Shown here piece by piece: positions 6,360 through 49,236 of a DNA stretch of 64,000 bases. The notes below the pieces were generated by a model. That model was not told the origin of the DNA, made no database searches, and saw only the letters and a list, made by a program, of their open reading frames with translations. The translations under genes were made by a program, and so were the position numbers. The stretch covers positions 1-64,000 of the IMG/VR virus record IMGVR_UViG_3300033273_000208; one strand, 5' to 3'. The stretch comes from a virus. Each line of letters begins with the position of its first letter. The stretch's first letter is position 1.

Positions 6360-6501
6360 CAAAGAGGCGAAAGGATTGCTCAAGAGAGCAATGTTATTGT
6401 TACTCTCTGACCTCTATAAGAGGCAGGGAGACATCAGTCCCAGACAACGTGATACAATACATGAGATTGTTACTACATTACATCTTGAACCCGAAGCATG
6501 A
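6334..6501 (+). CDS. Small hypothetical protein
   Basis: 55 aa (MFLKSAPLSKEAKGL...). It overlaps the lyase end by 26 bases and shares ATGA with the next start, which fills an otherwise empty 138-base gap and fits the coupled layout. Predicted helical and basic. Function unknown. Confidence 0.6.
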   Translation: MFLKSAPLSKEAKGLLKRAMLLLLSDLYKRQGDISPRQRDTIHEIVTTLHLEPEA

Positions 6502-19202: not shown

Positions 19203-19424
19203 ATGGACAACTTGAACGAAAACTTTAAGAACATTGCTGAAGCATTTAATCATACAAATGCTCGCTTACAGTTACTAGAGGAGGCGGTCTCCAAAATGCC
19301 ACCGCCAGGTCCAGCAATGATTCAGTACAAACCTCCTGGGTCGGAAGAGTATAAAAACCTAAAACAAGTCTTCGATGATCTCTATGACAGGATAAATACA
19401 ATCGAGACAGTTCTTGGTATTTAA
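19203..19424 (+). CDS. Small coiled-coil protein
   Basis: 73 aa. Two helical stretches (residues 4-32 and 50-72, heptad-like), separated by a proline-rich PPPGPAMIQYKPPG. It directly precedes the 1,175-aa structural gene (TAATG overlap), so it could be a minor structural or chaperone protein. Function unknown. Confidence 0.65.
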   Translation: MDNLNENFKNIAEAFNHTNARLQLLEEAVSKMPPPGPAMIQYKPPGSEEYKNLKQVFDDLYDRINTIETVLGI

Positions 19425-23983: not shown

Positions 23984-24175
23984 ATGGCTAACAATCCGAT
24001 ACCTGACCATGTGCCTAGCATCATGGAGCAACAGTTTGGCACAAGGGTACTAATCACTGACCCAAAAGCTGATAAATATCTGAAGTTAGCACACAAAAAC
24101 GATCCGCCCAACGATCGTCTTTCAAAATGGTGTGGTGGTAAAAATGGGTTCGATGATTACGTTGAACGTCTCTAA
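23984..24175 (+). CDS. Small hypothetical protein upstream of gp25
   Basis: 63 aa from ATG 23984, preferred over an upstream TTG because of AAGAGAAA before it. VLITDPKADKYLKLAHKND, then LSKWCGGKNGFDDYVERL. It overlaps gp25 by one base; small proteins at this place are common in cyanophages and may help baseplate assembly, but function is unproven. Confidence 0.7.
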   Translation: MANNPIPDHVPSIMEQQFGTRVLITDPKADKYLKLAHKNDPPNDRLSKWCGGKNGFDDYVERL

Positions 24176-24588
24176 TGCCCGCTTATAGATTTAGATCTGA
24201 AAAGTTCCTTAGTAGAGGGTACAAAGACCTTGCAGTTTCTTTCAAGGCAAATCCCAATACTAAGGATTTTAGTGTGGTTAAAAATGAGAACGCAATCAAA
24301 CAGTCCATCAGAAACCTGATGCTTACTGCGTTTGGTGAGCGTCCTTTCCAACCTGGGATTGGTTCTAGAATCAAAGGTCTTCTCTTTGAACCATTTGATG
24401 TGTTCTTGGCAGAAGAAATGAAGACAGAGATTAGAAACACTGTTGAAAGACTGGAACCAAGGGTCGAACTTCAGAATGTATTCATCCGCGAAAACCCCGA
24501 TGCTGGGGAACTCAATGTGACTATTGAATATATCATTATTGGTCAAACAATAACCCAAACTGTAGATTTCCTCCTAGAGGTCGCATAA
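24175..24588 (+). CDS. 25: Baseplate wedge protein gp25
   Basis: 137 aa (T4 gp25 is 132). The gp25/GPW lysozyme-like wedge domain is clear: KQSIRNLMLTAFGERPFQP, then GSRIKGLLFEP, typical of the sheath-initiator interface. In T4, gp25 bridges the wedge core and sheath and starts sheath polymerisation. gp6 starts 2 bases later. Confidence 0.93.
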   Translation: MPAYRFRSEKFLSRGYKDLAVSFKANPNTKDFSVVKNENAIKQSIRNLMLTAFGERPFQPGIGSRIKGLLFEPFDVFLAEEMKTEIRNTVERLEPRVELQNVFIRENPDAGELNVTIEYIIIGQTITQTVDFLLEVA

Positions 24589-26664: not shown

Positions 26665-29600
26665 ATGCAAAAGAACATCAACGTATCTGACAGAGTTGCT
26701 TATCAGGTACCTGATTTTATCAGGGAAGAAGATCAGCAGTTCGTAGACTTCCTGTTTGAATACTACAAGTCACAGGAAAAGACAGGCAGGCCCTTTGACA
26801 TCCTCAATAACGTCAATCTCTACCTGGACGTTGATTCTTATTCTCAGAGAACCCTCTCTGCAGGCACCACACTGCTCAAGGACATCGGTTTCGTTGAAGA
26901 CCTCATTGAGGTTGAGTCGATTGATGGATTTATCGAAAAGGATGGCAGCATCCTGATCGATAATGAAGTCATCTACTACGAATCGCTGACTAGAGGTCCT
27001 GATGCGATTCTGACCCCTGGCATTTCGATCGAAGAGTTCAAGAAGAAAGAACAACTCCTGGAATCTCCGTTCCAATACTTTGATGGCGTCCAAAACACCT
27101 TTGATCTACGATTCCTTGGTGAACCGATTCAACCCGTCTCGGCAGATCACCTCATTGTGCGTGTTTATGGCGTAGCACAGATTCCTGGTGAAGACTATTT
27201 CGTTGAAGGCGACACTATTCGCTTTGCAACACCCCCTAGAGAAAAACTCGGCACCGATGACCCGAACACAACCTCCATTATCTACATGGTGGGTTTTGCG
27301 GACATCAATATCGACACTCTGGACGAAAATCCAATCCAAGATGGTTCTAAGACCCATCCGCTTCGCTTTGGTACTCAGTTCTATACTCCAGTATCAGAAG
27401 TTGGTCTGATCGTCAACAGAAATGGTGTCTTCCAGCAACCATTTGTTGATTATGTGATCTATCAGACTACTGCTGATGGCACATACATTGAGTTCCGTGG
27501 TTTGCAACTGTCTGCCAGCGAAAGACTGACGATTCGTTCGATTGAGTACATTTCTCCCGCTGTTGGATCGGGGGCTCAGATCGTTTCTAGTGTCAATGAA
27601 GACGGTCTTCTGATCGACCTCCTGGTTAAAGAGGGTGGTAGTGGTTATCGCCTTGAGTTTGCACCCAAAGTAACCATTACTCCGTCTGACCTTGGTGGTG
27701 TCGGTGCAACTGCACGTAGTTTGATCGGTGGTGCTAAAAATATTAACTTGATCGGTGGTGGTCAGGGATATACCTCATATAACCCCCCTCTGATTGAGAT
27801 TGCTCCCCCTACAAACCCCTATGGCACTCAAGCAACAGCAGAACTGGTTGTTGATGATGAAACTGGTCAGGTAAGTTCCCTCAAGATCACTAACTCTGGT
27901 TCTGGTTACGACTTCATCCCCGCAGTTAGTTTTAAGAACCCCAGTGGTGCTGCGATTACCGATCCTGAGATTGACAGTGAGGGTCGTCTGGTAACCGACA
28001 GCATTAGTGTGACTAATGGTGGTCTTGGTTATTCCAATCCCCCTCTGGTACATATTGACCAGGCTCCTGTAGGTGGCATTGATGCCCAAGCAGTCGCTGT
28101 TTTGAACCCTGAGGGCATTGTGGTCCAAGTTGTGATCACAAACCGTGGTAGAGGGTATACCAATGCCCCCAGAGCACGTATTATTCAACCCGTTGGTGCA
28201 CAAGTCCTTGGTGTGACTGTTGCATCTGGTTCAGTTACTGACATTGAACTGCTGACTGGTGGTAGAGGTTACGTTGACCCCCCATCTGTCTATATTGTCG
28301 ATGATCGTAAGGACTCTGCTGGTCTCCCCATCGGCGGTACTGGTGCAACTGCTGTTGCAACCATCTTTAACGGTGAAATCACAGATATCAGCATTACCAA
28401 CTTTGGTGAGGGGTATGATCCCGCATTCCCACCGAAAATCTACATTGCAGAACCTCAAGCGGCTAGAGCATCTGTAGATATCGGTTTTGATGAGGTTACT
28501 GGATTTGAAATCAACACACCTGGCTCTGGGTACAAACCCTCTGCTCTGGTGGGCTGTGTGCGTGGCACCAGCGGAACCATCTCCTACGATAATGTAGGAA
28601 ACCAAATCTTTGCAACCGAATCTCAACTCAAACTCAGCAATCATATTGCTGGTGCTGAAGTTGTCTCTCTCGACACACTTTTCTTACGTCAGATCTTTGA
28701 TAAGATTCGCCGTCAGTACCTGCCGACCATTCGACTGGATTATACCAAGGTAAATCCCGTTCAGGTCATCAAACGTATCCGTGACTTCTATGTATCTAAG
28801 GGTACTAAGACTGCAACTCAGTTCCTGTTCAAAGTTCTGTTTGGTGAAGAGGTTGATGTCTACTATCCCCGCGATGAGGTCATTTCTCCTTCTGCTGCAA
28901 GTTGGGTTGTTGATACCATCCTTCGTGCAACCCTTATTGAGGGTAACCCAGACGATCTGATCGATGGTGAGATCGTTCAACTCGTAGATGAAGTCGATAC
29001 TAACGTTACTGCTGCTTCTGCATTGATTGAGAACGTTATCTCGATTATTAAAGGCACTGACACCATTTACGAACTGGCAATCTCTGAAGAAACCCTTCAG
29101 GGCAAGTTTATCATCCCATATAAGACAAAACTGGTTGAGTTTCTGAGCAAGACTGATCAGATCATCACTGTGGACTCCACAATCGGATGGCCTGCAAGAA
29201 ACGGTACAATCCGAATCAATGATGAGGAAGTTGTTCAGTATAAAGAGCGTTCACTGAACCAGTTCATCGAATGTACTCGTTCTAAGAACGGTGTGGTTGA
29301 AGATTGGGATCCTGGCACTATTATCTATTCTGATATCTACGTTTACGTCAACTATGGCACTGATCAGCAGTGCAAACTGCGTATTCTGGGTATTGCTGAA
29401 GCAGGAAGTACAACTCTCGACGATACTGGTTCTTACTACCTCGAAGGCGATAAACTGACCGTTGCATCTCTTGGTGCTACCGATCAGGACGAAAAACTGT
29501 CCTCTTGGTTGTACAACGTCAAAAAACTGATTTCGGTTGAGTCTGCAACTCCTGGTGGTCAGAATAATCAGACTGCAACCATCGTAACAAGCAATCCTCA

Positions 29601-32600
29601 TGGTTTGCTGGTGGAAGATAACGTGACAGTCTATGGTGCAAACCCAACTGTCTATAACGGCACTTTCCAAGTCACAGCACGTCTTGATGAGTATACATTC
29701 TCCTATCAGATGCTTGCTCCTACGGATATTATTCCTCAGGGCAACATTCTGCTGTCGGTTGACCTAAACCGTGGTAAGTCCGACGTTACTGCGATCAATA
29801 CTGCGATCACACCGTTTACCAGTAATATCCAAAACTCGTTCTTCAATGCACAGTATGTTTATGCTGCTGCAACGGGTCTTCCCAACTACAAAGTTGGTCC
29901 GTTTATTGGCACTGCACTGATTCCTGGTAACCAACGCAAACTCTTGCGTTTCCCCAGAAAGGCAACAACGGTCTCCAAGCGTGAAACTGTAAGACCCAAC
30001 ACTGCCGTTGGTGCATGGGTCAATGGTGTTTCTGTATGGTCCTATAAGTCCTCTGAGTTCCTGCGCTATGGTCCCCTGACAAGCATTGACATCACTAATG
30101 GTGGTCAAGGGTATGACGCTGGCAATAAACCACAACTGGAGATTTCTGGTGGTGGTGGATCTGGTGCAACTGCAGAAGTTACCGTTAATGGTTCCCTGTT
30201 CTCCATTGAGGTCACTGACGGTGGTACTGGATATAAGACACAACCTCTGGTGTCGGTTGTTGGTGGCGATGGCATTGGTGCTACAGCACAAGCCGTTATC
30301 ACTGGTGGTCGTGTAAGTCGTGTTCTGGTCGAACAACCTGGAACTGGATATACATCCCAACCCCTGATCTCTATTACTGGTGGTGGCGGTAGTGGTGCTA
30401 CAGCAACTGCAAGTGTCCGTGGTCCTATTTCTGCAGTAACTCTGACCAATGCTGGTTCTGGTTACACAGAACTTCCCACTATTAACCTAAACTCTGGTTC
30501 TGGTGCTCTTGCACAACCAATCGTTATCAATGGTCGTATTGTCTCTATTGCTATCATCAACTCTGGTAGTGGTTACACAACTGCACCCAACATTGTGATT
30601 AACGGCGATGGTTTTGGTGCTATCGCAAAAGCAGTCATTGGAACTATCGGTGAAGATAAGGGTAAGGTCATTAGTGTCCAGATCCTGAACAAGGGCATTA
30701 ACTATACTCAGGGCAATACAACAATCCGTTTGGAGGCAGTTGGTGAGTTTGCAACGTTCAAACCCAATGTTTTCCAATGGACCAAGAACCTGCATTATGA
30801 TCTTGCAGACAAGTATGACTTTGCAAGAGGTTATGTCTTCACAGGTTACAATAACCAGTTCGGTGGCGAATATGCACACCTCGTTGACCCGAAAGAACTG
30901 CGCTATGTAGTTGGTGACAACGTATTCCTGGATCCTGCAACAAATACATTCCAAGAACAGACTGCTAACAACGAGCACTCTCCGATTCTTGGTTGGGCAT
31001 ACGATGGTAACCCCATCTATGGACCATATGGTTATATCGACCCCACAGACCAGAATAGTGGTCTGAGAAGACTCCGTTCTTCTTATCAGTTGAAGTCTTC
31101 ACTGGTCTACGAGGTAGACTCCAACCCCAATCCCACTCGTGGCGATGGTCCTCCGCTGAGTGAGTATCCTGCTGGTACATTCGTTGATGACTACGAGTAT
31201 GCATTCCAGTTGGGTGATCTGGACCCCTACAACGGTCGTTTCTGTAAGACCCCCGAGTATCCTGACGGCACTTATGCATATTTCGTCACTATTGACGAAT
31301 CTGATGCGGGTCAAGCAGTATTCCCATATATCATTGGTCCTGAGTTCTATTCTCAACCAGATACCTGGAATATGAGTCAGGATGCGACTCAGGATAATAT
31401 TCCTTCCGATGTTGTCCGTTTCCGCGATCCGTTTACCGAAGTTGACATTGATGTTGATCGTCAACCCAACAGAGAACCAGATATCCTGACTACAGAACTT
31501 GAGGCATATCCTCTGATCTTGGAAATCCAAGATACTAACGGTGATGGCATCATTGACTCTAATGAGCAGTTAGAAACTATCGAACTCTCTGAAGAATCAA
31601 CTCTACAAATCTATGATTACTTCCCAACTGTTTCTGACGAGTCTAGAGTTGATATTGAAGTCGAAACTATTACTAAGTTTGAATCCGCACAGATTGACGG
31701 ATTCGTTATCGAAAATCCTGGTGTTTCTTATCAGGTAGATGACGTTATCTTCTTCAATAATGAGGGATCTGGTGGTTTTGGTGCTTCTGCAGCGGTTTCT
31801 GCTGTTGAAGGTCTCAGCATCCTCGGATATCAGAAGATCATTGAAGATGATGTGGTATACGGTAAGATTACCACTGATGGTAACCACGAACTGTATGTTG
31901 GTGATGAGGTAATCGTTACATCTACAGTTATCCCCGACAATACCAATAAAACCTACTATACCAAGGTTGTTTCTGGTATTGAGGATATTGTCATTGATCA
32001 AGAGGGAGTTGGTTACAACGAATCGATTCCTCCCACATATGAACTGATCACGACTTCTGGTCAGGATGCAGTATTTAATCTGAACGTTACTCAGACTGGT
32101 CAGATTACAGAGGCTCAGATCAGCATTATCAACTCTGGTAATCAGTATGATCCTGAGAATCCTCCACAAGTACGTGTCTCCCACCCACAAATCTTCAAGA
32201 AGACTCGCTACTATGCTGGTGAATACAGAGAAACCACTCAGAGTGAGGAAACTCTTGGTGTATTCAATGTCAACCACTCACTGACAAATGCTCTTCGTTA
32301 TACCTATGTCTGTGGTTCCATCACTAAGTCAGATGGCACAACCGCTGCATGGATTGCTAAGTTTAACGATGTTGGCGATCTGATTTGGGATCGTACACTC
32401 GAAACCATCGATGGTATCACCAAGACTGCTAGATTCAAGCAGATGTACCTCGATGAGCGTGCAGAGAATGACATTATCTATGTTGTTGGTGAAACTGAGT
32501 ACGATAATGCAAACAATCGTCCCGACATCCTACTCGTTAAGTATGAGTCGGCATTTGACAATGCAAACCAACCCGAAGGTCAAGTAAGATACCAGAAGGA

Positions 32601-35600
32601 GATTTCTGGTGTGTCTGGTACTACTCGTCGTGACTATGCGATGGGTATCACCCTTGGCGAAGAAGAAAGAGTATACATCTGCGGTTATACCGACACCAAC
32701 TCACCCGACCCCGATGATATGTGGGTCATTCAGATGAATGAAGAAGGTGAGATGAGAGAGAAGCGTAAGTTCTCTTCTTCGGATGATGATGAGCGTATGC
32801 ACCAGATCAAGTATCTGGGTGATGCAAGATATCTGTTTGTCGGCATGAATATGTCCGACTATTACATGATTATTGGTGAGTTCTTCTTCGATGGTAATAA
32901 CATCGAACTTTCCTATGCTAAGAACATCAATATCTCTGGTGGTAGACCCCAGAATCCTCGTTTCACGATTGACAACTATAATGATGTATATCTGACATTT
33001 GATATCTTTAACAATGCCATCCAGAAGAACTCTGCTGTTGGTATTGCCAAGTTTGCTTATGATCAGATCAATGCTAATGAACCCACCTGGGATTGGTATA
33101 AAATCCTTGCACCTAGCACAGAGTTTGTTTCTATCACCAATGCAGACATCAATATTGATATTTTTGGTAATGTGACCCTGGTCACTGACACCAAACTTAC
33201 CGAAAACACCAGAAAAGTTGGTGCTCACTATATTAAGTTTGATGGTGAGATTCTTAAGCAATCTACTATCGAAGATGTTGACACAGTTGGTGTTCAGGCA
33301 ACAACCCACACTGTTGATGATTCGGGAGACCTGATCATCTTTGGTCAGAAGCAAAAGTCCGATCAAGCGGCATCTTACCGTTTTGATGGTTCTGAGGGTA
33401 GTGGCGGATTTATTTCTGCTATTACTAACATTACTGGCACTGCCGCAACTCGTGGTGCTGGTGTTGGTACTCTTGGTTCTATTTCTGCGGCAGATCAAAT
33501 CAGAGCAACCAATATCGGCACTCTGACTACTGCAACTGCTGTCAACGTTCTCCGTGCTGGTAAGATCTCAACCGTTGGTGGATTTAGTGCTGCTGATGTT
33601 CGACGTGCAGGTACCGTCCTTGATCTGGAGAACTTCAGTGCTGCTGATGCCCGTCGTGGTGGTGCAGTTAATGGTGTAACCAACATCTCCGCTGCAGATC
33701 CGAAGCGTGGTGGTGTTATTGCATCTGTAAACAATATTGGTGCTGCAGATCAAGCAAGAGGTGGTCGAATCACCTTGATGGCAAATATCTCTGCTGCAGA
33801 CCCCATCCGTGGTGGTAATATCCTCGGTGTTGGTAATGTTAGTGCTTCCGATCCTTCCAGAACTGCTGGAACATATCAGGCTGTTACCTATACAACATCT
33901 GGTAGTGGTGTTAATGCCGTCTTTGATATTACAGTCAATGCTGCAGGTGCAGCAATCATTACAGTTGTAAATGGTGGTATTTCGTTTGCAATCAACGAAA
34001 CAATCACTGTTGCTGACGCTCAGTTGGGCGGTGGTGGTGCACCTGATGTGACATTCCAAGTCAATGCTATTGGTGGTTTTAACTACACAAATGTTCCTGT
34101 AACCAGTACAGATGTAAACAGCACTGGTTCTGGTGCCACTGTGGATGTTGGTGTTTCTTCCACTGGTGATGTTTCCTTGACAGTCAACCAAGGTGGTATT
34201 GGATACTATAACGGTGAGACTCTGACCATTTCCGATTCGGATATCGGTGCCTCTGGTGCAGCGAACCCAACGTTTGATGTATCTGGTCTTGGTGGATTCT
34301 CTTATACCAACGTTGCTAGCACAAACAATGGTGTTGGTGTTAATGCAACCTTTAACGTAACTATTGATGGCACGGGTGCGGCAATCGTTGTACAGGTCAA
34401 TCAGGGTGGTCTTGCATATGCTGCAGGCGACACAGTAACCATTTCAGATTCTCTGCTTGGCAATAATGGTGCAGCAAACCTGACCTTTGATGTTGAAACG
34501 ATTACTGCTCCTGCAACATATACAAACGTTGCTGCCACTTCGACAAGTGGCATCGGTACAAATGCAACGTTCTCCGTCACTATCGATGCTAACGGTGCCG
34601 CATCTATCGTATCTGGCACTCCTGCTGGTCTGTCTTATGCGGTCGGTGACACCATTACGATTGCAGACACATCTCTGGGCAATAGTGGTGCTGCTGACCT
34701 CACATTTGAGGTAGCAACCATCAAAGCACCCCCTCTGTATAGCAACGTTGCTACAACATCTAATGGTGCTGGTTCTGGTCTGACTCTGCAGGTCACTATC
34801 AATGCAGATGGTTCTGTAGCATTCTTGAACGTCACCGATCCTGGTAATGGATATGTGGTTGGTGATACCATCACTATCCAAGATGCAGATGTTGGTGGTA
34901 CTGGTGCTCCAAATATTACTGCAGATGTTGAGTCTGTTGGTGGTGGTGCAATCTATACCGTAAGCAACTTTACGAGCACTGGTTCTGGTACTGGTGCCAC
35001 ATTCAACGTCACTGTTGACAGTAGTGGTGCTATTTCTCAGGTAAATATCATTAACAGTGGTAATGGATTCGTTGCTAACGAGACCGTGACTGTTCCCGAT
35101 AGTGAACTGGGTAACAACGGCGGTGCAGACTTCACATTCAATGTGACTGCAACTAACGGCATTACTTATAGTGGTATCTCCACGTGGACATCCAGCAATA
35201 ATGCATATGGTGGTGGTACTGGTGCAGTATTCAACATTGAGTTGGATAACCTGGGTAACTTTACAGCACTGACACCAATCAGCCGTGGTGCAAACTTTGT
35301 TCTTAACGACACAATCACCATCCCAGATTCTCAGTTGGGTAACACTGGGGCACCTGATGTAGTCCTGAGTGTGGCGTCCATTGAGGGTCATACTTACAAT
35401 AATATTTCTGCCACCACAAGTGGAACTGGCGAACTCGCAACCTTCAATGTTGTCGTTGATGGCAATGGTCTGGCAACACCTACTGTTAATGACCCTGGTA
35501 GAGAATATCAAACTGGTGATACATTCACCATTACCGATGCTCAACTTGGCAACTTTGGTGGTGCTAATCTGACCTTTGAGGTCACCGTACTTCAAGGTAT

Positions 35601-41600: not shown

Positions 41601-44600
41601 CGAAGGTGGCGCTACCTATGGTGCACCTGGCACTGTCTCCAACACCGATACTGGTGCTTGTGCAGATGTTCAATCGGCAGTTGATACTTTGGCAACAGCG
41701 ATCACTGAGACGCTGCTTGGTAACCAAGACTTCGACGACATTGACGCCGAAGAACCCACATATAATACTACCGAAGAAAAATGCCGTCGTGACGTTGGTT
41801 ACTTCGTTGATGGTCTTGCGTCTGACGTTGGTCAGGGTGGCAACCTGGGTGTTGTTACCTGGGCACGTTTCTACTTCGAGAATGGAACTTTCATCAGCAA
41901 CGGTGTTGCTGGCGAAGAAGCAGAAACAATCACCGCTCTGAACAAAGCACGCGATCTTGCTAAAAGAGCAATCAACAACCTTCTGTATGAAAAGGATTTG
42001 ACAATCCTGTATGATCCTGCATCTTACGGTGGTTCTGCTCCTGGTCATGACTATGATGCAAACTACGCTTCTGGTACTAACCAAGATGCAAGCAACTGTG
42101 CGGACGTTCAGTCCACCATTGACACTCTGACTACGATTGCTACAACTGCAATCAACAACCAGACACTTGCAAATATCAACGCTCTGTCCTCCATCGATGA
42201 TGGTTCCTTCAGAGATGGTGAGACTATTCGTGTTATCAAGGTTGCATATAAGAACAAGTCCACAGGTCTGTTTAACAGATTGGATTCTGTTCGCGGTGTC
42301 ACCTCTGGTGCAACCATGACCCTGGAGGGTGTTAACTCTGGTCTTAAGTGGTTGTTTGCTTCCAGTGCAGGTGTCAATGGAACGTTCCAAGACGATGAGT
42401 ACATCACCAACTCCACCATCACCAACCCTGGTGCTGCACAAGTTACTCAGAGTGTTCTGAATGTCAAGTCCGACTTGGCAAACAGCACTAAGTCTCTGAA
42501 GTTTGTTGCAAACTCCTGGCTGAAGAAGGCAGAGTCCTACGATGTAGACTTCGGAACTGGCGATTTCACTCTGGAAGGATGGTTCTACCCCACTGGCATT
42601 GTTGGTCAGCAAACCCTCTTTGACTTCCGTCGTACAGCGACTGAGGGTCTCATGATTGAGATGAACAACGACACTCTCCGTGTTTATAGCGGTTCAGGTA
42701 CTGTCGTTATCATTTCCAATGCGGTCTTTACTGCTAACACCTGGCACCACGTTGCAGTCGTCAGAACATCTGGCGTGATGCTCGCATTCGTGGATGGTGT
42801 TCAAGCAGGTGGTAGTGCTACCAATAGCGATGACTTCGGATGGGGTCCTTGCTACATCGGTTCCGACTTGAATGGATCTAATGGTTTCATCGGTAATGCC
42901 GATCAGGTCGCAGTCTACAAGGGATATGCCAAGTTTACTTCGGCATTCACTGCACCCACTAGCAATGACTGGGATGATGAGAGAATCGTTCTTGGTCTGA
43001 ATGCTGAACAACCCTTCATCGTTTCTACTGCTGAGGTTTATGCTCAGTTCAGTGGTCAGACAGTATCGTCTGCAACTGCTAAGAGAATCGACTACGCCGA
43101 TAAGCGTGTAATCGTTGAGGACATTGATCTGGGTCGTGACTCCCATCGTGATGCGGCAGATCTTATCCTCAAGAACGATAAGTGGATCTCTGAGGTTGCT
43201 GTCGGTCGCATGAAGGCGAAGTATTCTGACTTCGTGTTGCCTGGTGATGATCCCGCAACCAACATATATCAAGGCACCTACTATTGCCTCCGCGACACCG
43301 AAGAGTACATCCTCGACGCTATCGTTAAGGATCTCAAGTATGGTGGTGATTACTATACAACCGTCGCGGCCAAGGGTTACCTGGAGAAAGATGGCAGTCT
43401 GGACTTCATCGGCAAAGAACTTCTGCAATCCCTGTACGCATGGGAGCAAGCAGGTGAACTCTGCAAGTACGTTGTTTCGACAACTGACACAGATCTGACC
43501 GATGCATACACTGAAAGACTCCGCATTCCTCTGACTGGTTCTGCTGCAACGCAGGCAGTTCTGGATAACATCGACGCTCTGACTCAGAACATTCTGAACA
43601 TCCTTGCACCTACTGGCGACCGCTTCCGCGACGCTGGCGATGCTCTGTGGTTGAACAGAACTTACATTGCTGAGGAAGTTGTTGGTTACATTGAGAACAA
43701 GTGGGAAGTTACCATCAATGGTACCTACTACGACAAACTGCAGATCCCTGGTGGTAACAACGGTCAGGTCTGCATCCGCGACATCAAGGAGTACATCATT
43801 CCTGCAATCATTGCTGACCTGCTCACAGGTGGTAATGCAGCAGTCAACGAAGTCATCGACTTCTACCTGAATGGTGAGCAAGATATCCTTCACGTCAGCG
43901 AAGAACTGCTGCCGATGCTGGATGCAATCTCCTACACCAAGTATCTGTCCACCAAGGCAATCAACCAACTGCTTGTTCAGTTCGGTCAAGCACCTGATCC
44001 TGCTCAGGGTTCTACAAACTACGACGATTACTACATCGCTCAGTACACTCAGGCAGTTCCCTACATCGATCACACGGTAACCGTGGATCCTCAGGGTTAT
44101 GACGCCAACCGCGCTGATAACAACCTGCTGATTGATGCAGCAGACATGATTGAAAGGAACAAGAAGCAGATTGCTTCTGAGGCAGTCATGAGAATGAATG
44201 ACCTCGCTAAGTTCCAAGATCTACAAATCCCTGGCGGTCAGCAGAACTGTATCGATGATGTGGTTGGTTTCATTGAGGCACTTGTCCACGACATTCGTCT
44301 GGGTGGCAACAGCAAGGTTTTTGATGCTGCTGAACTGTACATCGAACCTGAGAACAACTCCCTCCGTCACATTGAGAGTGAAGCAGAAGCATCCATCTAC
44401 GCATACAAGATGGCGAGAGACATCTGTGTTCTCGCAATGCGTAACGGATTCGGACGCGATAACATCTATGGCTATGGGTCTGGTGAGGAAAATGATCCTA
44501 GCGTTGAGTCTTACGATCAGAACCCACAATCCTCTCGCATCATTGATGCTGCAAACATCCTCGACAGAAATATCCGTTTCATTGCTGAGGAAGCAGTTTA

Positions 44601-47600
44601 TCGTACAACGATCCAGTATCCTTCCCTCACCATCCCTGGTGGCAACATCAACTGTGTCCACGACATTGCAGACACCCTGAATGCAATGGTCTTCAACATG
44701 AAGTACGGTGGCAACAACATGGTTTATGACGCTGCTGAGTTCTACGTGGGTACCTCTGGTCTCCAGCACGTTGCATCTCAGTCTGCTGAGTCTGTCTACG
44801 CATTCAACCAGGCACGCGACATTGCGATTCAGGTTATGCGTGCAGTGCCCGTTATCAACACTGGTAACGAGGTTCATGGGTTTGAGCAGAAGTATTATGA
44901 CGAGCTCGACTACGAACCCTACAAGTCCAAAACCCGCGACTATGTGACTCTGGATGAGGCTGCTCTGACTGGTGGCACTACTGCAAACCGCTCTCGTGCT
45001 GCTGACGCATACAACCTGATCTACAACAACGCTCGCTGGATTGCAGAAGGCACCGTCAATACCTTCGTGGCATCTAATAGTTGGACAATCCCTAACGGCA
45101 CCGAATCCTGTATCGATGATACTGAGCGTATCCTGAAAGGTGTTGCATATCACGTTGCTTACGGTGGTAACTCCTATGTCTGGGATTATGCAAACGAGTA
45201 TGTCCAAAATGGACACATCGGTTCTCCCCAGAACGGTTGGACGCAGGCGATCTTCAACTACATCAACAGCAATATCCTGCCCGATGTTATCCGCAACATC
45301 CAACCCACTGCAGCAAGTTCCTGGAACGCTGCAGGTCACACGGATCTTCAGCAATACAGAGATCTCACGATCACTACTGACGTGACCCAACCCGCATGTC
45401 CTACTGAGGTTGCTGCTGCTACAACGCTGCTGTCGATCGTTACCGATGCTGTGGTGAATGGCAACATGAACCACGCAGCTCGTACCGTTCCTCCTGGCGG
45501 TGGTGCATGTGCAAACGTTGAGTCTACAATCACAGATCTGTTTGCAATCGTCACCGATACAATCAACAACTACACCAGTCTGGGTGGCGTTCCTCGCACA
45601 CTGCCTAGCATCTGGCCTCTGAAGTACACCGCAGATTCTGCTGAGCGTGATCTCACCGTCACCTACGACAGTGCTGCTACTTCCTGGGGTACCACTTGCC
45701 AGAATGTTGAAACAACCATCAACGGTCTGTTTGATATCGTTCTGCAAACCATCACAGACGCAAGTGCTGCATCGCCCAGTAACTACCTGGATAGTATCTC
45801 TAGAACACTGCCCACAAACGGATTCACCAACACTCTGTATCAGCAATATACCTGCTACAACGTGATTGATGCTGCATGGACTCTGTTCGATCTGATGCTG
45901 GATAGTCTGGGTTCTGGTTCCTACTCAAACCGCCTGACTGCAGAGTTCATTCGTAAGAATGATCACGCGATTACTGCTCGTGCTGTGGCAGCAACCTTGG
46001 CACAGTATCCTTCGGGCGATATCCCCGATCAGGCATATGCACAGGATGTTCTTGAAGCATGTATCTACGATATTGCAACTAACGGCAACGCAGGTGCATT
46101 CAAACTCGCAAATGAATGGTTCGATGGTGAAGGTAACTTCATCGCTTACCCAGATATTCAGAGAATCCGCCTCCTGTACTGCATGAACAAGGTTCGTGAG
46201 TATGCGAAGGATGTGATGTTCAACTTCAATGATATTGATTGGTCTTTGTACGATGTTTGGAGTCCTGAGCAAGTTCAGGGTTATACTCCTCGCCTGGAAT
46301 GGGATCAGGAGAGCACCGAGTTCAATATGGATTCCTCGTTCAACTGCCTGGAGTTTGCTATCGAGCGTGGCACATTCCCCTCTGACAACGTGGTCACATT
46401 CGTTGCTTCCACGGACGCTCAGAACCTCACCAACTCCTATAACGAAGGACAAGACTACAACACAGACCCCGCTCTGGTTCTTCTCACTCCGACAATCGAA
46501 GTTGGTTGGGAGCGCGAAGAAAATCGCGTACGCATCAACCGTACCAACTTCTTCCGCCGTGGCGATGTTCTGAAATATGTCCTCGCTTCTGCAACTTCCC
46601 TGGACGGTGCGAACGATCAAGATTACTACTACGTTCTCAACGCAGAACCGCAGTGGTTTGAGATCTCTCGTATGTCGAAGCACGATGCTCGCTTCCGCGA
46701 CTTCACTTTCGATCTTAACAACACAGGTAACCAGCAGTTCTTCACTGCTCGTCGTGCAGGTGTTACTCGCGTTGCCAACGATTATGGAACACGCGATATC
46801 CAGACCCCCATCTCTGCTGGATTCAACATCGCAGACGTGCTCGTGGGCACGACAACTGGTGCTTCCGCCGAAGTATCGTCTACCTTTATCAATAACGCAA
46901 AGATTGTTAAGACCTTCAAATACTATGGTCTTGAAACGATGTCTGAGACTACCTTCATCGACGGCGAACAAGTTGTCGTGCAGGGTGCCGTCACAAACAA
47001 CGGTTATGTCATGCAGCACGTCATTCCTGACGAGTTTGACAACGGTTGGATCAAACTTGAAACACTCCAAGGCACAATCTCTCAGGGAGATACCATTGAG
47101 GGCATCACATCTGGTGCAACTGCGGTTGTAACTGCAGTTGAGGAAGATCGCCTGCTTCTCAATGCCAAGACTGGTATCTTTAGTCAGGGTGACTGGTTGT
47201 TCAAGAAAGATACCGCAACCGAAGCATATATTGATGTCTTCAATGACAAGCGTGGTGTTCTTACCGCAACTGACGGTGGTCGCATCACTATGGACGTTGA
47301 AACAATCAATAGTTCCTGGGAAACTGGCGATGTAATCTACGGTTCCATCACAGACAAGTATCTTGATCTGGTTGGTATTGATGACCAGGGACAAGCAATC
47401 TCCGTGAACACCTACGTGCACGGTCAGAAAATCTACAAACTGTCCCTCTCTAGCGTCTCACGCGATACGGGTTACACGGGCGACTTTGTTTCTGGTGATA
47501 CCGTATATCTGCTGCAAGGCACAACCGTTGCGGTACCTGGCATTACAGCAACTGTATCCCAGTGGGATTATCGCCCCGAGGATGGTGTAAATGATCTTTA

Positions 47601-49236
47601 TCTCACCTCACCCGTACAGACGGGTGGTGGAAACGTCCCCGTGAGTACATTTGGTGCAGGTGGTTACAACGTTGGTAAGTTTGAGAACCTCAACAACTTC
47701 CCGCTGATCTTTGCATCTGGCACCTTCGTCGAAACCTCCTATTCCGCTTACGGCAAGATCGCTAAGATCGATCAAACGGGCACAACCGCTCGCTGCTGGT
47801 TGGAAGAAGTTGAAGGCGACTTCCTCACCAACATGACCATCACGTCCGATAATGGTTGGCAGGCAGGTGTCGCACTTGCGAAAGATTTGATTGGTCGTGT
47901 TGATCGCTACTTCCGTGGTTTCGACGGTTCTCAAACAACCTTCAAACTCACCATTGCTAACGGCGAACAATACCTGCCCGACCCCGCAGGTCACATGCTG
48001 ATTTTCGTGAACGGCATCCTGCAACCCCCTGGCGCATCTGCATCGTACACCGCGTCTTCTGACGAGATTACGTTCACAGAGGCACCTGAAGTTGGATCTG
48101 AGTTCATCGGTTACTACATCGGTAAACTCCGTCAACTGGATGATATCAGCTTCGAGTTTGACTCGCTCCGCTCCTCGTTCAACCTCAAGTACCAGGGTGG
48201 TTTCTACTCCCTGACCCTGACTGAAGGTGTTTCTTCCAACACCATTCTGCCTGAGAACAACATCATCGTTTCCCTCAACGGCATCATTCAGGAACCTGGA
48301 GTTGGTTATGAGATCGTTGGTTCTCGCATTATCTTCTCTGAGATTCCTCGCTCAGGCACGACCTTTGTAGCATTCAGCTACATTGGTTCTGACGCGGACG
48401 TTATTGCTGCAACCGTCGTTCCCCCGATTGAATCGGGTGATCAACTATTCATCGAAGGTGAAGACGAGGCAGAACCCCGTGAGGTCGCTCTGATCGAATC
48501 CTCCAACTCGCTGGTTACCTTCGAGTACACAGGTACAGTCAAGGGTCGTAACGCTTCCGCTCTGGCGAACATTCGCCAAGGTACGCTCTCCGCAGCAATC
48601 ATCACCAACCCTGGTAACGGTTATACCACACGCCCGAATGTGGACGTGATTTCCTCCAGTGGTTTTGACGGTCGCGTACGTGCACAAATGGGTGTCGCAA
48701 GCATCCAAGTTAAGACTCCTGGTGTTGGTTATGCACTGCCCGTGGTTAGCGTTCTGACAACGGTTGCCGATGACTTCACATCGCCTCAGGGACCTCCGAT
48801 TAACGGTGGTTTTGATGTCTACGCAGGCGAAGCGATCGATGCTACTACTGGCGAAGTTATCACCATTGAGGCAGGTGCAATCCAGATCACACGCCAACCT
48901 CTGAACATCACAGTCAACCAAGGTCAGACTGCAGTGTTCAACGTGATCGCAGTGTTCAACGCTGCTGATGGCGATCCCATGGGCGTGACCGAAGGTCTGA
49001 ACTATCAGTGGCAGAAGAAGAACTACGGCGAAACTAACTGGAACAACATCATCGGTGCAAACCAGGCAACATACACAACCAGCAGCACCATTCAAGGTGA
49101 TGATGGTGATGAGTATAGAGTTGCAATCACATACGCAGGTGCAACACCTGTCTACTCCAACTCCTCTGTCCTCACGGTACAGACGGGCGCTACTGTGATC
49201 GCCAACTTCGATCCCTCGTCTATTTTCGCACAATAA
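26665..49236 (+). CDS. Giant 7,523-aa baseplate/fibre protein (gp7-position)
   Basis: One intact frame of 22.6 kb. Residues 1-1180 resemble the cyanophage gp7-position wedge protein (VSDRVAYQVPDF, then RIRDFYVSKGTKTATQFLFKVLFGEE near 700-725). Inserted modules: GSGYT-type repeats (310-630, 1130-1360, 3945-4150, 7300-7370), a YHYH-like domain (1410-1562), a beta-propeller-like part (1875-2240), eight 17-aa repeats (2263-2398), nine 70-aa repeats (2405-3050), a LamG-like domain (3070-3250), carbohydrate-binding-like repeats (3480-3605), a second LamG-like domain (5270-5430), helical repeats (4890-5175, 5490-6510) and an Ig-like C-terminus (7405-7508). It probably starts as a wedge protein and continues into a host-binding appendage. 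T4 gp7 has 1,032 aa. Positions are approximate. Confidence 0.8.
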   Translation: MQKNINVSDRVAYQVPDFIREEDQQFVDFLFEYYKSQEKTGRPFDILNNVNLYLDVDSYSQRTLSAGTTLLKDIGFVEDLIEVESIDGFIEKDGSILIDNEVIYYESLTRGPDAILTPGISIEEFKKKEQLLESPFQYFDGVQNTFDLRFLGEPIQPVSADHLIVRVYGVAQIPGEDYFVEGDTIRFATPPREKLGTDDPNTTSIIYMVGFADINIDTLDENPIQDGSKTHPLRFGTQFYTPVSEVGLIVNRNGVFQQPFVDYVIYQTTADGTYIEFRGLQLSASERLTIRSIEYISPAVGSGAQIVSSVNEDGLLIDLLVKEGGSGYRLEFAPKVTITPSDLGGVGATARSLIGGAKNINLIGGGQGYTSYNPPLIEIAPPTNPYGTQATAELVVDDETGQVSSLKITNSGSGYDFIPAVSFKNPSGAAITDPEIDSEGRLVTDSISVTNGGLGYSNPPLVHIDQAPVGGIDAQAVAVLNPEGIVVQVVITNRGRGYTNAPRARIIQPVGAQVLGVTVASGSVTDIELLTGGRGYVDPPSVYIVDDRKDSAGLPIGGTGATAVATIFNGEITDISITNFGEGYDPAFPPKIYIAEPQAARASVDIGFDEVTGFEINTPGSGYKPSALVGCVRGTSGTISYDNVGNQIFATESQLKLSNHIAGAEVVSLDTLFLRQIFDKIRRQYLPTIRLDYTKVNPVQVIKRIRDFYVSKGTKTATQFLFKVLFGEEVDVYYPRDEVISPSAASWVVDTILRATLIEGNPDDLIDGEIVQLVDEVDTNVTAASALIENVISIIKGTDTIYELAISEETLQGKFIIPYKTKLVEFLSKTDQIITVDSTIGWPARNGTIRINDEEVVQYKERSLNQFIECTRSKNGVVEDWDPGTIIYSDIYVYVNYGTDQQCKLRILGIAEAGSTTLDDTGSYYLEGDKLTVASLGATDQDEKLSSWLYNVKKLISVESATPGGQNNQTATIVTSNPHGLLVEDNVTVYGANPTVYNGTFQVTARLDEYTFSYQMLAPTDIIPQGNILLSVDLNRGKSDVTAINTAITPFTSNIQNSFFNAQYVYAAATGLPNYKVGPFIGTALIPGNQRKLLRFPRKATTVSKRETVRPNTAVGAWVNGVSVWSYKSSEFLRYGPLTSIDITNGGQGYDAGNKPQLEISGGGGSGATAEVTVNGSLFSIEVTDGGTGYKTQPLVSVVGGDGIGATAQAVITGGRVSRVLVEQPGTGYTSQPLISITGGGGSGATATASVRGPISAVTLTNAGSGYTELPTINLNSGSGALAQPIVINGRIVSIAIINSGSGYTTAPNIVINGDGFGAIAKAVIGTIGEDKGKVISVQILNKGINYTQGNTTIRLEAVGEFATFKPNVFQWTKNLHYDLADKYDFARGYVFTGYNNQFGGEYAHLVDPKELRYVVGDNVFLDPATNTFQEQTANNEHSPILGWAYDGNPIYGPYGYIDPTDQNSGLRRLRSSYQLKSSLVYEVDSNPNPTRGDGPPLSEYPAGTFVDDYEYAFQLGDLDPYNGRFCKTPEYPDGTYAYFVTIDESDAGQAVFPYIIGPEFYSQPDTWNMSQDATQDNIPSDVVRFRDPFTEVDIDVDRQPNREPDILTTELEAYPLILEIQDTNGDGIIDSNEQLETIELSEESTLQIYDYFPTVSDESRVDIEVETITKFESAQIDGFVIENPGVSYQVDDVIFFNNEGSGGFGASAAVSAVEGLSILGYQKIIEDDVVYGKITTDGNHELYVGDEVIVTSTVIPDNTNKTYYTKVVSGIEDIVIDQEGVGYNESIPPTYELITTSGQDAVFNLNVTQTGQITEAQISIINSGNQYDPENPPQVRVSHPQIFKKTRYYAGEYRETTQSEETLGVFNVNHSLTNALRYTYVCGSITKSDGTTAAWIAKFNDVGDLIWDRTLETIDGITKTARFKQMYLDERAENDIIYVVGETEYDNANNRPDILLVKYESAFDNANQPEGQVRYQKEISGVSGTTRRDYAMGITLGEEERVYICGYTDTNSPDPDDMWVIQMNEEGEMREKRKFSSSDDDERMHQIKYLGDARYLFVGMNMSDYYMIIGEFFFDGNNIELSYAKNINISGGRPQNPRFTIDNYNDVYLTFDIFNNAIQKNSAVGIAKFAYDQINANEPTWDWYKILAPSTEFVSITNADINIDIFGNVTLVTDTKLTENTRKVGAHYIKFDGEILKQSTIEDVDTVGVQATTHTVDDSGDLIIFGQKQKSDQAASYRFDGSEGSGGFISAITNITGTAATRGAGVGTLGSISAADQIRATNIGTLTTATAVNVLRAGKISTVGGFSAADVRRAGTVLDLENFSAADARRGGAVNGVTNISAADPKRGGVIASVNNIGAADQARGGRITLMANISAADPIRGGNILGVGNVSASDPSRTAGTYQAVTYTTSGSGVNAVFDITVNAAGAAIITVVNGGISFAINETITVADAQLGGGGAPDVTFQVNAIGGFNYTNVPVTSTDVNSTGSGATVDVGVSSTGDVSLTVNQGGIGYYNGETLTISDSDIGASGAANPTFDVSGLGGFSYTNVASTNNGVGVNATFNVTIDGTGAAIVVQVNQGGLAYAAGDTVTISDSLLGNNGAANLTFDVETITAPATYTNVAATSTSGIGTNATFSVTIDANGAASIVSGTPAGLSYAVGDTITIADTSLGNSGAADLTFEVATIKAPPLYSNVATTSNGAGSGLTLQVTINADGSVAFLNVTDPGNGYVVGDTITIQDADVGGTGAPNITADVESVGGGAIYTVSNFTSTGSGTGATFNVTVDSSGAISQVNIINSGNGFVANETVTVPDSELGNNGGADFTFNVTATNGITYSGISTWTSSNNAYGGGTGAVFNIELDNLGNFTALTPISRGANFVLNDTITIPDSQLGNTGAPDVVLSVASIEGHTYNNISATTSGTGELATFNVVVDGNGLATPTVNDPGREYQTGDTFTITDAQLGNFGGANLTFEVTVLQGIVYSNISASEGSGVNASIDVNVDASGAVTINMNKTGRGYLISDTLRVTDAQLGGYGYADITFDVQTTINVFDETKLNRGTPQYYNATDATIDTVNYKWGTGSTALTAANHYGITGFDLNTSEWTLQGWFRIDSATQALNNSQPTFFETHPNDGSNPSNTLRLYVDGDSGSADYGKLKLVHEGTTDVAVSVSATVWATFAGGAWVHVALSKTQPTLGAYDYAAYINGQQLGLWSGSTDDIGVDEVYVGGIKVPTTYTTLIGNIDDFVIDDDSQYSGASFTLPDAAIPIRTTNTGVSIYKIDRQHDRRGTFAVTDLPNSTSVAFLAESNWSYNTQTQPAMTNWEIGPGGLQILDYAEVTSQLTTGIYTFDYDSVLYGSKTSTVPSPGGKRLVLSPVVTPKYYIKDATYQKIDSVQQLTFNQDVRFTKGQILQQYNEQGTTQRYGTIVEVPEGTIENPGLGTTYKIGNIFPAAATFNTTDKIRSTSATDAGLNVITGITFTVARDFAEWEQAASYIAGDQVYSQGNIYTATTNGTAGTNEPVHTTGNASDGGVSWDFTVSANTPLEVDLSNTPYPTPKDPIWTKLKIYDIGDVVYYGRNKYTATAAGRSSQNPPTHTTGTATDGTVTWQYTSTYDPLSDYATFKEFDAGENWYSLTVNKIYSDSNFIANDNLSIGGSVTVNPKEDAPTILQINGIGSVKEISLIAVLDKTILVDTQERTDLVYCVANSAHKYSANDILFTEGFSTSEFNGSFFVREVFSSREFTFQVRETPAAEPAFLQNSIARVNIYTKHPTLLLIRNHNYLFDMSDSSNLGYYLSFSQDNEFKLEYSFNNIERQGTPGVFDGTNAPFVKLKVDGQVTNISYYFDPSRTGANSPVGDKSFIDVKKTPFDGRYTVSKVLSQTEFQFPLLFEPENNNAEIGSDDQGNPYSVYSTTSKRAIGPIADIKLISAGGFYQRLPIISDIASFRQIERVEIISGGSEYAIGTYDQVPINGDGEGGLCRIEVAVDEEIGSGTIVSVTVTDPGKGYTTASIDVDGIQGILGPTLTGSGADLDVIIPDEGSGASVFLTGKNIGKIKKLKNNEFGYGYSHDYTLKPEITFPINLQLFNTSILSQITITDPGAGYTSAPAVIISGGGGVGAEAVAVVKNNRLSEIQIKNPGAGYSSEPSVTLKSEFNYVVNLDLNYLQFNFPHGITNGAAIQFRADDVGTTVGELPKPSSAGLTSLVVGQTYYAIAGESNSLEGDQLRFALTPADAESGNFITFLTQGAGRQVLLTEVFGGKAEAVVETSRFLEGEKVYQGDSEETATVFAYVSENNGWQLGPKILKLINATGTFVVGERVNGSVSRASGVIDNVSLAKGVLNIDSLTQTPGRFIDDVGKPSEIVQKIQDSFFYQNFSYVIKSTIPINRWREQILENNHPTGFNMFGQLQLAGGKDISGRKVGTEFIKQVNINEYANVNQITSFGAAQPIYTDFNNTEVLFRKKRLTNSEEILTSIVKKLDDIADQFDGIQTAFNLTVEGEQVIVKNNQLLITLNGIIQAPVDAYDIVGGQIVFKEAPKAPSKVVYRDVGLEFLTITRLNLTDVSGIYPEIGYQISGASSDAYATVVASGTNTIDVVDITGGPFQNNERIDVSALGFSALIGSQEVLTQSTLYEFDETLVCTNRNRGNPTAQVNAINLDENGDASSAIVVSKTTGTAKYETGVFDFRLQDIIYSTRSNLAARITFLAPYRDPVTDDVVGEQILTAGSSFYGLLFERIVSTSYPNILLDDISKSTITPTELFDNEERINSFFLDFEEVRSTEVTYTDLSSGVFSNGDDIRNIKVFYNNPIYGAAYGTAAPRYYDARNRISASKDEIIDFATAEIAVEHEDFYYPGQPQTDSRSRFRDGYRLIIKNKDWIVAKTYEDMILQYPSLVVPNSDKCKRDLGHFVDAVAYDTYAGGNKYARKFIQMYFTGQGLGYINQQLAETTWAYGRAATYMKDAITNQLSGTETIDSVLYTKYQDLTVTEGGATYGAPGTVSNTDTGACADVQSAVDTLATAITETLLGNQDFDDIDAEEPTYNTTEEKCRRDVGYFVDGLASDVGQGGNLGVVTWARFYFENGTFISNGVAGEEAETITALNKARDLAKRAINNLLYEKDLTILYDPASYGGSAPGHDYDANYASGTNQDASNCADVQSTIDTLTTIATTAINNQTLANINALSSIDDGSFRDGETIRVIKVAYKNKSTGLFNRLDSVRGVTSGATMTLEGVNSGLKWLFASSAGVNGTFQDDEYITNSTITNPGAAQVTQSVLNVKSDLANSTKSLKFVANSWLKKAESYDVDFGTGDFTLEGWFYPTGIVGQQTLFDFRRTATEGLMIEMNNDTLRVYSGSGTVVIISNAVFTANTWHHVAVVRTSGVMLAFVDGVQAGGSATNSDDFGWGPCYIGSDLNGSNGFIGNADQVAVYKGYAKFTSAFTAPTSNDWDDERIVLGLNAEQPFIVSTAEVYAQFSGQTVSSATAKRIDYADKRVIVEDIDLGRDSHRDAADLILKNDKWISEVAVGRMKAKYSDFVLPGDDPATNIYQGTYYCLRDTEEYILDAIVKDLKYGGDYYTTVAAKGYLEKDGSLDFIGKELLQSLYAWEQAGELCKYVVSTTDTDLTDAYTERLRIPLTGSAATQAVLDNIDALTQNILNILAPTGDRFRDAGDALWLNRTYIAEEVVGYIENKWEVTINGTYYDKLQIPGGNNGQVCIRDIKEYIIPAIIADLLTGGNAAVNEVIDFYLNGEQDILHVSEELLPMLDAISYTKYLSTKAINQLLVQFGQAPDPAQGSTNYDDYYIAQYTQAVPYIDHTVTVDPQGYDANRADNNLLIDAADMIERNKKQIASEAVMRMNDLAKFQDLQIPGGQQNCIDDVVGFIEALVHDIRLGGNSKVFDAAELYIEPENNSLRHIESEAEASIYAYKMARDICVLAMRNGFGRDNIYGYGSGEENDPSVESYDQNPQSSRIIDAANILDRNIRFIAEEAVYRTTIQYPSLTIPGGNINCVHDIADTLNAMVFNMKYGGNNMVYDAAEFYVGTSGLQHVASQSAESVYAFNQARDIAIQVMRAVPVINTGNEVHGFEQKYYDELDYEPYKSKTRDYVTLDEAALTGGTTANRSRAADAYNLIYNNARWIAEGTVNTFVASNSWTIPNGTESCIDDTERILKGVAYHVAYGGNSYVWDYANEYVQNGHIGSPQNGWTQAIFNYINSNILPDVIRNIQPTAASSWNAAGHTDLQQYRDLTITTDVTQPACPTEVAAATTLLSIVTDAVVNGNMNHAARTVPPGGGACANVESTITDLFAIVTDTINNYTSLGGVPRTLPSIWPLKYTADSAERDLTVTYDSAATSWGTTCQNVETTINGLFDIVLQTITDASAASPSNYLDSISRTLPTNGFTNTLYQQYTCYNVIDAAWTLFDLMLDSLGSGSYSNRLTAEFIRKNDHAITARAVAATLAQYPSGDIPDQAYAQDVLEACIYDIATNGNAGAFKLANEWFDGEGNFIAYPDIQRIRLLYCMNKVREYAKDVMFNFNDIDWSLYDVWSPEQVQGYTPRLEWDQESTEFNMDSSFNCLEFAIERGTFPSDNVVTFVASTDAQNLTNSYNEGQDYNTDPALVLLTPTIEVGWEREENRVRINRTNFFRRGDVLKYVLASATSLDGANDQDYYYVLNAEPQWFEISRMSKHDARFRDFTFDLNNTGNQQFFTARRAGVTRVANDYGTRDIQTPISAGFNIADVLVGTTTGASAEVSSTFINNAKIVKTFKYYGLETMSETTFIDGEQVVVQGAVTNNGYVMQHVIPDEFDNGWIKLETLQGTISQGDTIEGITSGATAVVTAVEEDRLLLNAKTGIFSQGDWLFKKDTATEAYIDVFNDKRGVLTATDGGRITMDVETINSSWETGDVIYGSITDKYLDLVGIDDQGQAISVNTYVHGQKIYKLSLSSVSRDTGYTGDFVSGDTVYLLQGTTVAVPGITATVSQWDYRPEDGVNDLYLTSPVQTGGGNVPVSTFGAGGYNVGKFENLNNFPLIFASGTFVETSYSAYGKIAKIDQTGTTARCWLEEVEGDFLTNMTITSDNGWQAGVALAKDLIGRVDRYFRGFDGSQTTFKLTIANGEQYLPDPAGHMLIFVNGILQPPGASASYTASSDEITFTEAPEVGSEFIGYYIGKLRQLDDISFEFDSLRSSFNLKYQGGFYSLTLTEGVSSNTILPENNIIVSLNGIIQEPGVGYEIVGSRIIFSEIPRSGTTFVAFSYIGSDADVIAATVVPPIESGDQLFIEGEDEAEPREVALIESSNSLVTFEYTGTVKGRNASALANIRQGTLSAAIITNPGNGYTTRPNVDVISSSGFDGRVRAQMGVASIQVKTPGVGYALPVVSVLTTVADDFTSPQGPPINGGFDVYAGEAIDATTGEVITIEAGAIQITRQPLNITVNQGQTAVFNVIAVFNAADGDPMGVTEGLNYQWQKKNYGETNWNNIIGANQATYTTSSTIQGDDGDEYRVAITYAGATPVYSNSSVLTVQTGATVIANFDPSSIFAQ
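33451..33858 (+). repeat. Eight tandem 51-bp repeats in the giant gene
   Basis: Units begin at 33451, 33502, 33553, 33604, 33655, 33706, 33757 and 33808, each exactly 51 bases (17 aa). The consensus is near RGGxIxxVxNISAADPx; the last five are most alike. The DNA has diverged by synonymous changes, so the repeats are old. The protein form suggests a regular solenoid or fibre shaft. Confidence 0.85.
33880..35815 (+). repeat. About nine tandem 70-aa repeats in the giant gene
   Basis: Each unit runs YTNV...GSGxxATFNVTxDxxGA...VNxGGxxYxxGDTxTI and then xDxxLGNxGAADLTFDV, with lengths of about 68-76 aa. They are beta-rich and probably form a row of small beta domains as in adhesin stalks. Nine units can be read by eye. 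Confidence 0.8.
43120..46210 (+). repeat. Helical repeats in the giant gene
   Basis: Repeats of roughly 110-140 aa with the pattern DAADLIxxNxxxIAEEAVxRM, then PGGxxNCIxDIxxxI, then YGGNxxVxDAAExYI and YAFxxARDIAIxVMR. At least five units are readable between residues 5490 and 6510, and shorter relatives occur near 4890-5175. A helical rod between beta domains is the simplest reading. Confidence 0.7.

Follow-up and report, generated by a model that had tools for sequence, protein, structure and literature searches.

The window analysed here (64,000 nucleotides, positions 1 to 64,000 of the 73,883-base IMG/VR virus record IMGVR_UViG_3300033273_000208) holds a giant gene whose product belongs to an already known family of giant proteins, the baseplate wedge proteins that occupy the gp7 position in T4-like marine cyanophages (Kyanoviridae). 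The helical modules in the later part of this protein are, as judged from profiles and models, eight domains of the phycobiliprotein/bilin-binding-globin fold, which we call phycobiliprotein-like (PBL) domains. We explain the protein as a T4-gp7-type wedge core to which long modules have been appended, with the PBL domains representing a co-opted fold, and we give this reading a probability of about 0.82. Protein size by itself is not news; what we consider novel is the repeated incorporation, into the tails of ocean cyanophages, of a fold from pigment proteins that retains its chromophore cysteine. We found no description of PBL or phycobilisome domains in cyanophage tails in the open-access literature that we searched. 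Because Pfam itself assigns PF00502 here, database annotation of such matches may already exist.

The giant gene follows two baseplate wedge genes on the same strand:

24175..24588, + strand: gp25-type baseplate wedge gene (PHROG 261, E 3e-54)
24590..26659, + strand: gp6-type baseplate wedge gene (PHROG 219, E 3e-196)
26665..49236, + strand: whole giant gene, 7,523 aa, 812.5 kDa, pI 4.4 (open reading frame and comparison with relatives)

A reading of the sequence alone (the sequence-only reading) had called a single frame of 7,523 aa, and this call was borne out. The frame begins with ATG and runs for 7,523 codons without an internal stop, and the orthologous frame is likewise open in 17 further cyanophage genomes from our sample (3,007-8,573 aa). 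In an independent IMG/VR contig the gene is also exactly 22,572 nt, or 7,523 codons, with no indels. Comparison with this relative gave 90.5% amino acid identity, a dS of 0.62, a dN of 0.058 and a dN/dS of 0.094; the ratio lay between 0.06 and 0.16 in each block of the gene, including the C-terminal 433 residues and the last 100 residues, and was highest (0.16) in the repeat insert at aa 2244-3048, the least conserved block. The independent contig with the same 7,523 codons and the low blockwise dN/dS rule out a sequencing or frameshift artefact. The giant gene is one intact frame, selected as one unit.

In a search of 50,697 phage records, the first 712 residues matched 399 records, all with Synechococcus, Prochlorococcus or Cyanophage names except for four named 'Marine' and one named 'Bacteriophage'. 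The orthologues that we sampled from isolates, which are annotated as 'baseplate wedge initiator', 'gp7' or 'virion structural protein', have lengths of 3,007 (S-SSM6a), 3,494, 3,533, 3,891, 4,225, 4,314, 4,454 (P-HM2), 5,195 (P-SSM2), 5,512, 6,076 (Syn9), 6,405, 6,422, 6,619 (S-SZBM1), 6,737 (S-WAM1), 6,817, 7,351 (P-TIM40) and 8,573 aa (P-RSM6), and the orthologue in IMGVR_UViG_3300026270_000004, at 9,560 aa, exceeds every isolate orthologue measured. The earlier statement that this is among the largest phage proteins is true, but within the giant family its size is ordinary: with orthologues of 3,007-9,560 aa, its length is large and not exceptional. PHROG 701 spans most of the protein, and homology to the Kyanoviridae giant wedge proteins is colinear over most of its length. 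With family members such as S-SZBM1_208 and the S-WAM1, P-TIM40 and P-RSM6 proteins it shares gene order, N-to-C colinearity, PBL domains and 53-63% identity in the main conserved blocks. It differs from those of S-SZBM1, P-TIM40 and P-RSM6 in an insert of about 805 aa (aa 2244-3048) that the three relatives do not have at this site.

The order gp25-gp6-giant gene is found in the window and in S-WAM1, P-TIM40, S-SZBM1, P-RSM6 and ACG-2014d. A PAAR-motif protein is also encoded before the giant gene, and downstream genes encode, among others, a protein with YHYH and Ig parts, a tail-fibre connector and a wedge protein judged gp8-like from its PHROG ('baseplate wedge subunit') and its position. 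This is where a T4-like marine cyanophage encodes its baseplate. Upstream of the PAAR gene, a gene for 1,175 aa (19424-22951; PHROG 22792, a family of unknown function) occupies the position at which relatives have a similar gene of 3-4 kb.

Two segments near the N terminus make up the conserved wedge portion:

26665..26994, + strand: N-terminal segment, aa 1-110, common to the shortest and most divergent orthologues (P-SSM2, S-8S55, S-SSM6a)
28525..30024, + strand: gp7-like wedge core, aa 621-1120; its motif RDFYVSKGTKTATQFLFKVLFGEEVDV at aa 706-732 (28780-28860) aligns with T4 gp7 residues 732-758

A profile of aa 621-1000 built from 13 diverse phages, when searched against all of the PDB, matched T4 gp7 and nothing else (E 2.7e-5, over 27 residues). 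The Pfam Baseplate_wedge match to the giant protein was sub-threshold, and an AlphaFold2 model of aa 621-1120, made from 16 similar sequences, reached a pLDDT of 32, too low to give a fold. The link to gp7, on which our main explanation draws, consists of a 27-residue stretch and synteny; profile match and gene order together support a probable gp7 identity for the core. T4 gp7 (PDB 5HX2/5IV5) has the same operon place after gp25 and gp6, and the motif DFY..KG...S..FLFK.L..EEV is conserved between the two. However, T4 gp7 has 1,032 aa and the cyanophage chain is about seven times longer, with the detected likeness limited to the short core. The wedge-like start proposed from sequence is supported by this profile match; the wider proposal of a wedge protein with long arms fits both the match and the gp25-gp6-giant synteny. 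The interpretation given in the sequence-only reading is, as a whole, supported in part.

Along the remainder of the chain we recognised the following modules besides the PBL domains:

27562..28539, + strand: GSGY-type beta repeats, aa ~300-625 (pattern; in a stretch absent from short orthologues)
30082..30654, + strand: second block of GSGY-type repeats, aa ~1140-1330 (pattern)
30862..31296, + strand: YHYH domain, aa ~1400-1544 (PF14240, E 3.6e-30)
32242..33393, + strand: propeller-like part, aa ~1860-2243 (by eye only)
33394..35808, + strand: insert of ~805 aa with two repeat arrays, aa 2244-3048 (S-SZBM1, P-TIM40 and P-RSM6 lack it here)
35809..40644, + strand: conserved central block, aa 3049-4660, with GSGY motifs and a small domain (orthologue comparison)
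42517..42939, + strand: LamG/concanavalin-like domain, aa ~5285-5425 (PF13385, E 9.3e-20)
47242..48786, + strand: conserved C-terminal block, aa ~6860-7374 (distant orthologues share 40-61% identity)
48925..49188, + strand: Ig-like end, aa ~7421-7508 (PHROG 613, match over aa ~7391-7506)

Much of this architecture had been proposed from the sequence alone, and several elements were confirmed: 17 GSGY-type motifs were counted by pattern, the YHYH domain has the strong PF14240 match given above, and the Ig-like end is supported by PHROG 613. Two LamG-like domains had been suggested, of which the second is real, with PF13385 matching aa ~5293-5419; the first, like the propeller-like part, drew no Pfam match at E 0.1 and is unproved. 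The first GSGY block can be placed in a stretch missing from the shortest orthologues because in these proteins aa 1-110 adjoins the segment that begins at aa 620. The small domain of the central block resembles stretches at aa ~130-195 and ~7129-7235. The insert consists of SAAD..RGG units followed by 'YTNVAST..' units of about 70 aa, and its borders are sharp against the three close relatives. Weak Pfam matches, including Glyco_hydro_30C, FLgD_tudor, MHC_I and Gp18_dom_I, fell below the cut-off and were taken as chance, and a PF13550 search of the window's own 73,883-base record returned nothing. Modules are shared among neighbouring tail genes: the next gene (49250-50845) carries YHYH and Ig, a pairing also present in the giant protein (YHYH at 30862-31296), and GSGY repeats occur again in 52383-54242.

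The sequence-only reading had noted helical repeats; these are real, but their identity had been missed. A profile made from one repeat resolved the region of aa ~4,850-6,530 into eight PBL domains, of which domain 6 was the one modelled with AlphaFold2 and searched against the PDB as a model:

41209..41553, + strand: PBL domain 1, aa 4849-4963, CKRD at 4894
41752..41994, + strand: PBL domain 2, an N-terminally truncated match, aa 5030-5110, CRRD at 5040
43120..43500, + strand: PBL domain 3, aa 5486-5612, CLRD at 5541
43600..43986, + strand: PBL domain 4, aa 5646-5774, CIRD at 5703
44104..44463, + strand: PBL domain 5, aa 5814-5933, CIDD at 5862
44515..44862, + strand: PBL domain 6, aa 5951-6066, CVHD at 5997
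44974..45318, + strand: PBL domain 7, aa 6104-6218, CIDD at 6149
45904..46242, + strand: PBL domain 8, divergent, aa 6414-6526, CIYD at 6466

The same one-repeat profile found about 67 PBL matches across 13 of 18 giant-family members, the window's protein counted. Two pieces of the giant protein, of 1,100 aa each, matched Pfam PF00502 with 47.8 and 31.4 bits against a cut-off of 22.2; among single domains, 21 of 51 matched PF00502 at E<=0.05, with no more than one matching any other family. When an alignment of 51 domains was searched against 177,635 PDB sequences, the best E was 1.4e-8, all of the 60 matches listed were phycobiliproteins, and the Cys and Asp of the domains fell in register with the alpha-84 CxRD chromophore site. 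A second alignment gave phycobiliproteins in 50 of 51 matches; the exception, a designed repeat protein, scored highest, and we judged it spurious because its score is the sum of eight repeats of 2-3 bits. The AlphaFold2 model of aa 5951-6066, from an alignment built from IMG/VR loci, reached a pLDDT of 93.5. Its best 50 Foldseek matches in the PDB were all phycobiliproteins or proteins derived from them (E ~0.01), as were its top 50 by VIA-align (Z ~12, rmsd ~2.4 A, ~107 of 116 residues). Since helical models can attain a Z of 13 by chance, we put weight on fold, profile and motif together. BLAST self-comparison of the giant protein found no strong internal repeats, because the PBL repeats are too divergent.

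Could the likeness be due to chance, or to convergence of a small helical domain? Helical bundles do yield many structural matches, and searches of the PDB with single PBL sequences gave weak matches (E 0.04-0.6). However, the profiles match almost nothing except phycobiliproteins among the PDB sequences searched, PF00502 scores above the Pfam cut-off, the motif residues are in register and the domains were found in cyanophages only, so that we regard chance or convergence as very improbable. With phycobiliproteins (PF00502; phycocyanin alpha, phycoerythrin beta, allophycocyanin) the PBL domains share the helical fold over ~107 residues, N47, a PGGN-type loop, equivalents of Cys84 and Asp87, and a GG turn. 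They differ in being shorter (~115 aa versus 160-177), in often having Arg86 replaced, and in forming a tandem array inside a virion protein, with a pigment that is only putative. A domain of ~115 aa has little room for the N-terminal helices of alpha/beta pairing, and the array context may supply partners. By description only, we set beside them the bacterial bilin-binding globins (BBAGs), bilin-capable relatives of phycobiliproteins outside phycobilisomes, which are free proteins with genes beside bilin-synthesis genes (PMC10151467).

The C-x-x-D motif is present in 158 of 163 distinct PBL domains from IMG/VR loci, as against ~10% of shuffled domains. All eight C-x-x-D motifs of the window's protein sit within its eight PBL domains; the cysteines of these domains are identical in the 90.5% relative, and the Cys content of the whole protein is low (0.39%). 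The full C-x-R-D occurs in roughly one domain in three (22 of 70; four of eight in the window's protein). More invariant than the cysteine is an Asn in an early helix (52 of 52).

PBL domains occur in 365 phage records, all with cyanophage names except one 'Marine' record. A scan of one genome from each of 84,980 prokaryote species with the PBL array, at a sensitivity that excludes close relatives only, found no cellular relative. Among 24 phages, 15 of the 18 with PBL domains encode CpeT (PF06206), versus 0 of the 6 without them (Fisher p 6e-4, with the tree not controlled). In four phages, from four genera, the CpeT gene precedes a tail-fibre gene with PBL domains by 0.3-2 kb on the same strand:

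S-PM2, NC_006820 163952-177267: CpeT-like bilin-lyase gene and 11-12-kb PBL tail-fibre gene
Syn1, GU071105 19938-33236: CpeT-like bilin-lyase gene and 11-12-kb PBL tail-fibre gene
ACG-2014j, NC_026926 17514-30501: CpeT-like bilin-lyase gene and 11-12-kb PBL tail-fibre gene
ACG-2014h, NC_023587 18382-32105: CpeT-like bilin-lyase gene and 11-12-kb PBL tail-fibre gene

Genes for 2OG-Fe(II) oxygenases stand between CpeT and the tail-fibre gene in three of these four loci. Because the site known for T-type lyases is a different cysteine (beta-153, not Cys-84), we treat the company of CpeT as a hint and not as a mechanism.

Whether the PBL domains carry a pigment bears directly on their role. We think it possible, at clearly less than even odds, that in the virion they would carry bilin or another linear tetrapyrrole. 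A tentative form of this idea has phage- or host-made bilins attached covalently, perhaps with the help of the CpeT-like lyases, and the domains acting as a light sensor or switch in adsorption. It would account for the retention of the chromophore-site Cys and Asp and for the association and proximity of CpeT, and the benefit of phage bilin genes in Prochlorococcus has been called unclear in the literature. Yet the lyases are known for the wrong site, a single inheritance could explain all four adjacent cases, the CxRD Arg has frequently been lost, and P-SSM2 has bilin genes without a PBL match in the profile search. S-SM2 is likewise without PBL domains. For P-SSM2, adsorption in the dark reportedly does take place. 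P-HM2, which has six PBL matches, fails to adsorb to its host without light (PMC7112961), and adsorption of several cyanomyoviruses has been reported to be light-dependent (PMC2984593), though such dependence may lie with the host. With so few phages, the link between PBL domains and light is a lead only. If the domains do bind bilin, the bilin synthases and CpeT-like lyases of phages would have a use, and the light-dependent adsorption of cyanomyoviruses would have a physical explanation. The most far-reaching version, in which cyanophage virions are biliproteins whose baseplate and tail-fibre PBL arrays are loaded through phage PebS/PcyA/Ho1 and CpeT-type lyases and make adsorption light-dependent, seems to us unlikely.

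We lean slightly towards purely structural or carbohydrate-contact modules, in which Cys and Asp would be retained because they serve folding, bind a metal or form a disulfide. The greater invariance of the early-helix Asn, the frequent replacement of the Arg, and the adhesin-like placement of the domains beside LamG and beta repeats are consistent with this role. It must contend with a cysteine that is rare in the protein yet near-invariant exactly at the chromophore position, and a regular internal disulfide is unlikely because most domains have one Cys. Prochlorococcus hosts lack phycobilisomes, and still their phages carry PBL domains, which counts against our main explanation. That explanation runs as follows: the conserved wedge core (aa 1-110 and 621-1120) lies towards the N terminus, and the protein has gained a very long series of further modules, some beta-rich, some lectin-like and some helical; six copies per baseplate, if the T4 stoichiometry applies, would give long host-facing arms; and cyanophages have co-opted the PBL fold and spread it through their tail proteins. 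We infer a role in host contact, and the protein is most likely a wedge/adhesin arm of structural function into which PBL modules have been recruited.

Virion mass spectrometry had been proposed as a check on the giant chain, and an orthologue largely supplies it. S-SZBM1_208 (6,619 aa, 724.20 kDa) was detected in purified virions by 71 peptides with 13.5% coverage, in a table where coverage peaks at 43.7% (PMC9146016 Table 1). Coverage of ~894 residues within the first 1,200 alone would need 74% local coverage; because no listed protein exceeds 43.7%, the peptides are not reasonably confined to the first 1,200 aa. The sequence-only reading had also raised a pre-protein, that is, a chain cut after translation into several virion parts. 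The very long mosaic chain would suit such processing, as would neighbouring genes that encode separate copies of similar modules (49250-50845, YHYH + Ig; 52383-54242, GSGY), but the 71 peptides were assigned to a full-length entry and cannot be confined to its first 1,200 aa. We found no support here for a pre-protein and consider it improbable.

A minor observation concerns the S-PM2 record at 161500-178000, which puts 16 tRNAs inside the tail-fibre CDS. ARAGORN found none there and nine upstream, around CpeT, and the tRNA coordinates of the record therefore look shifted.
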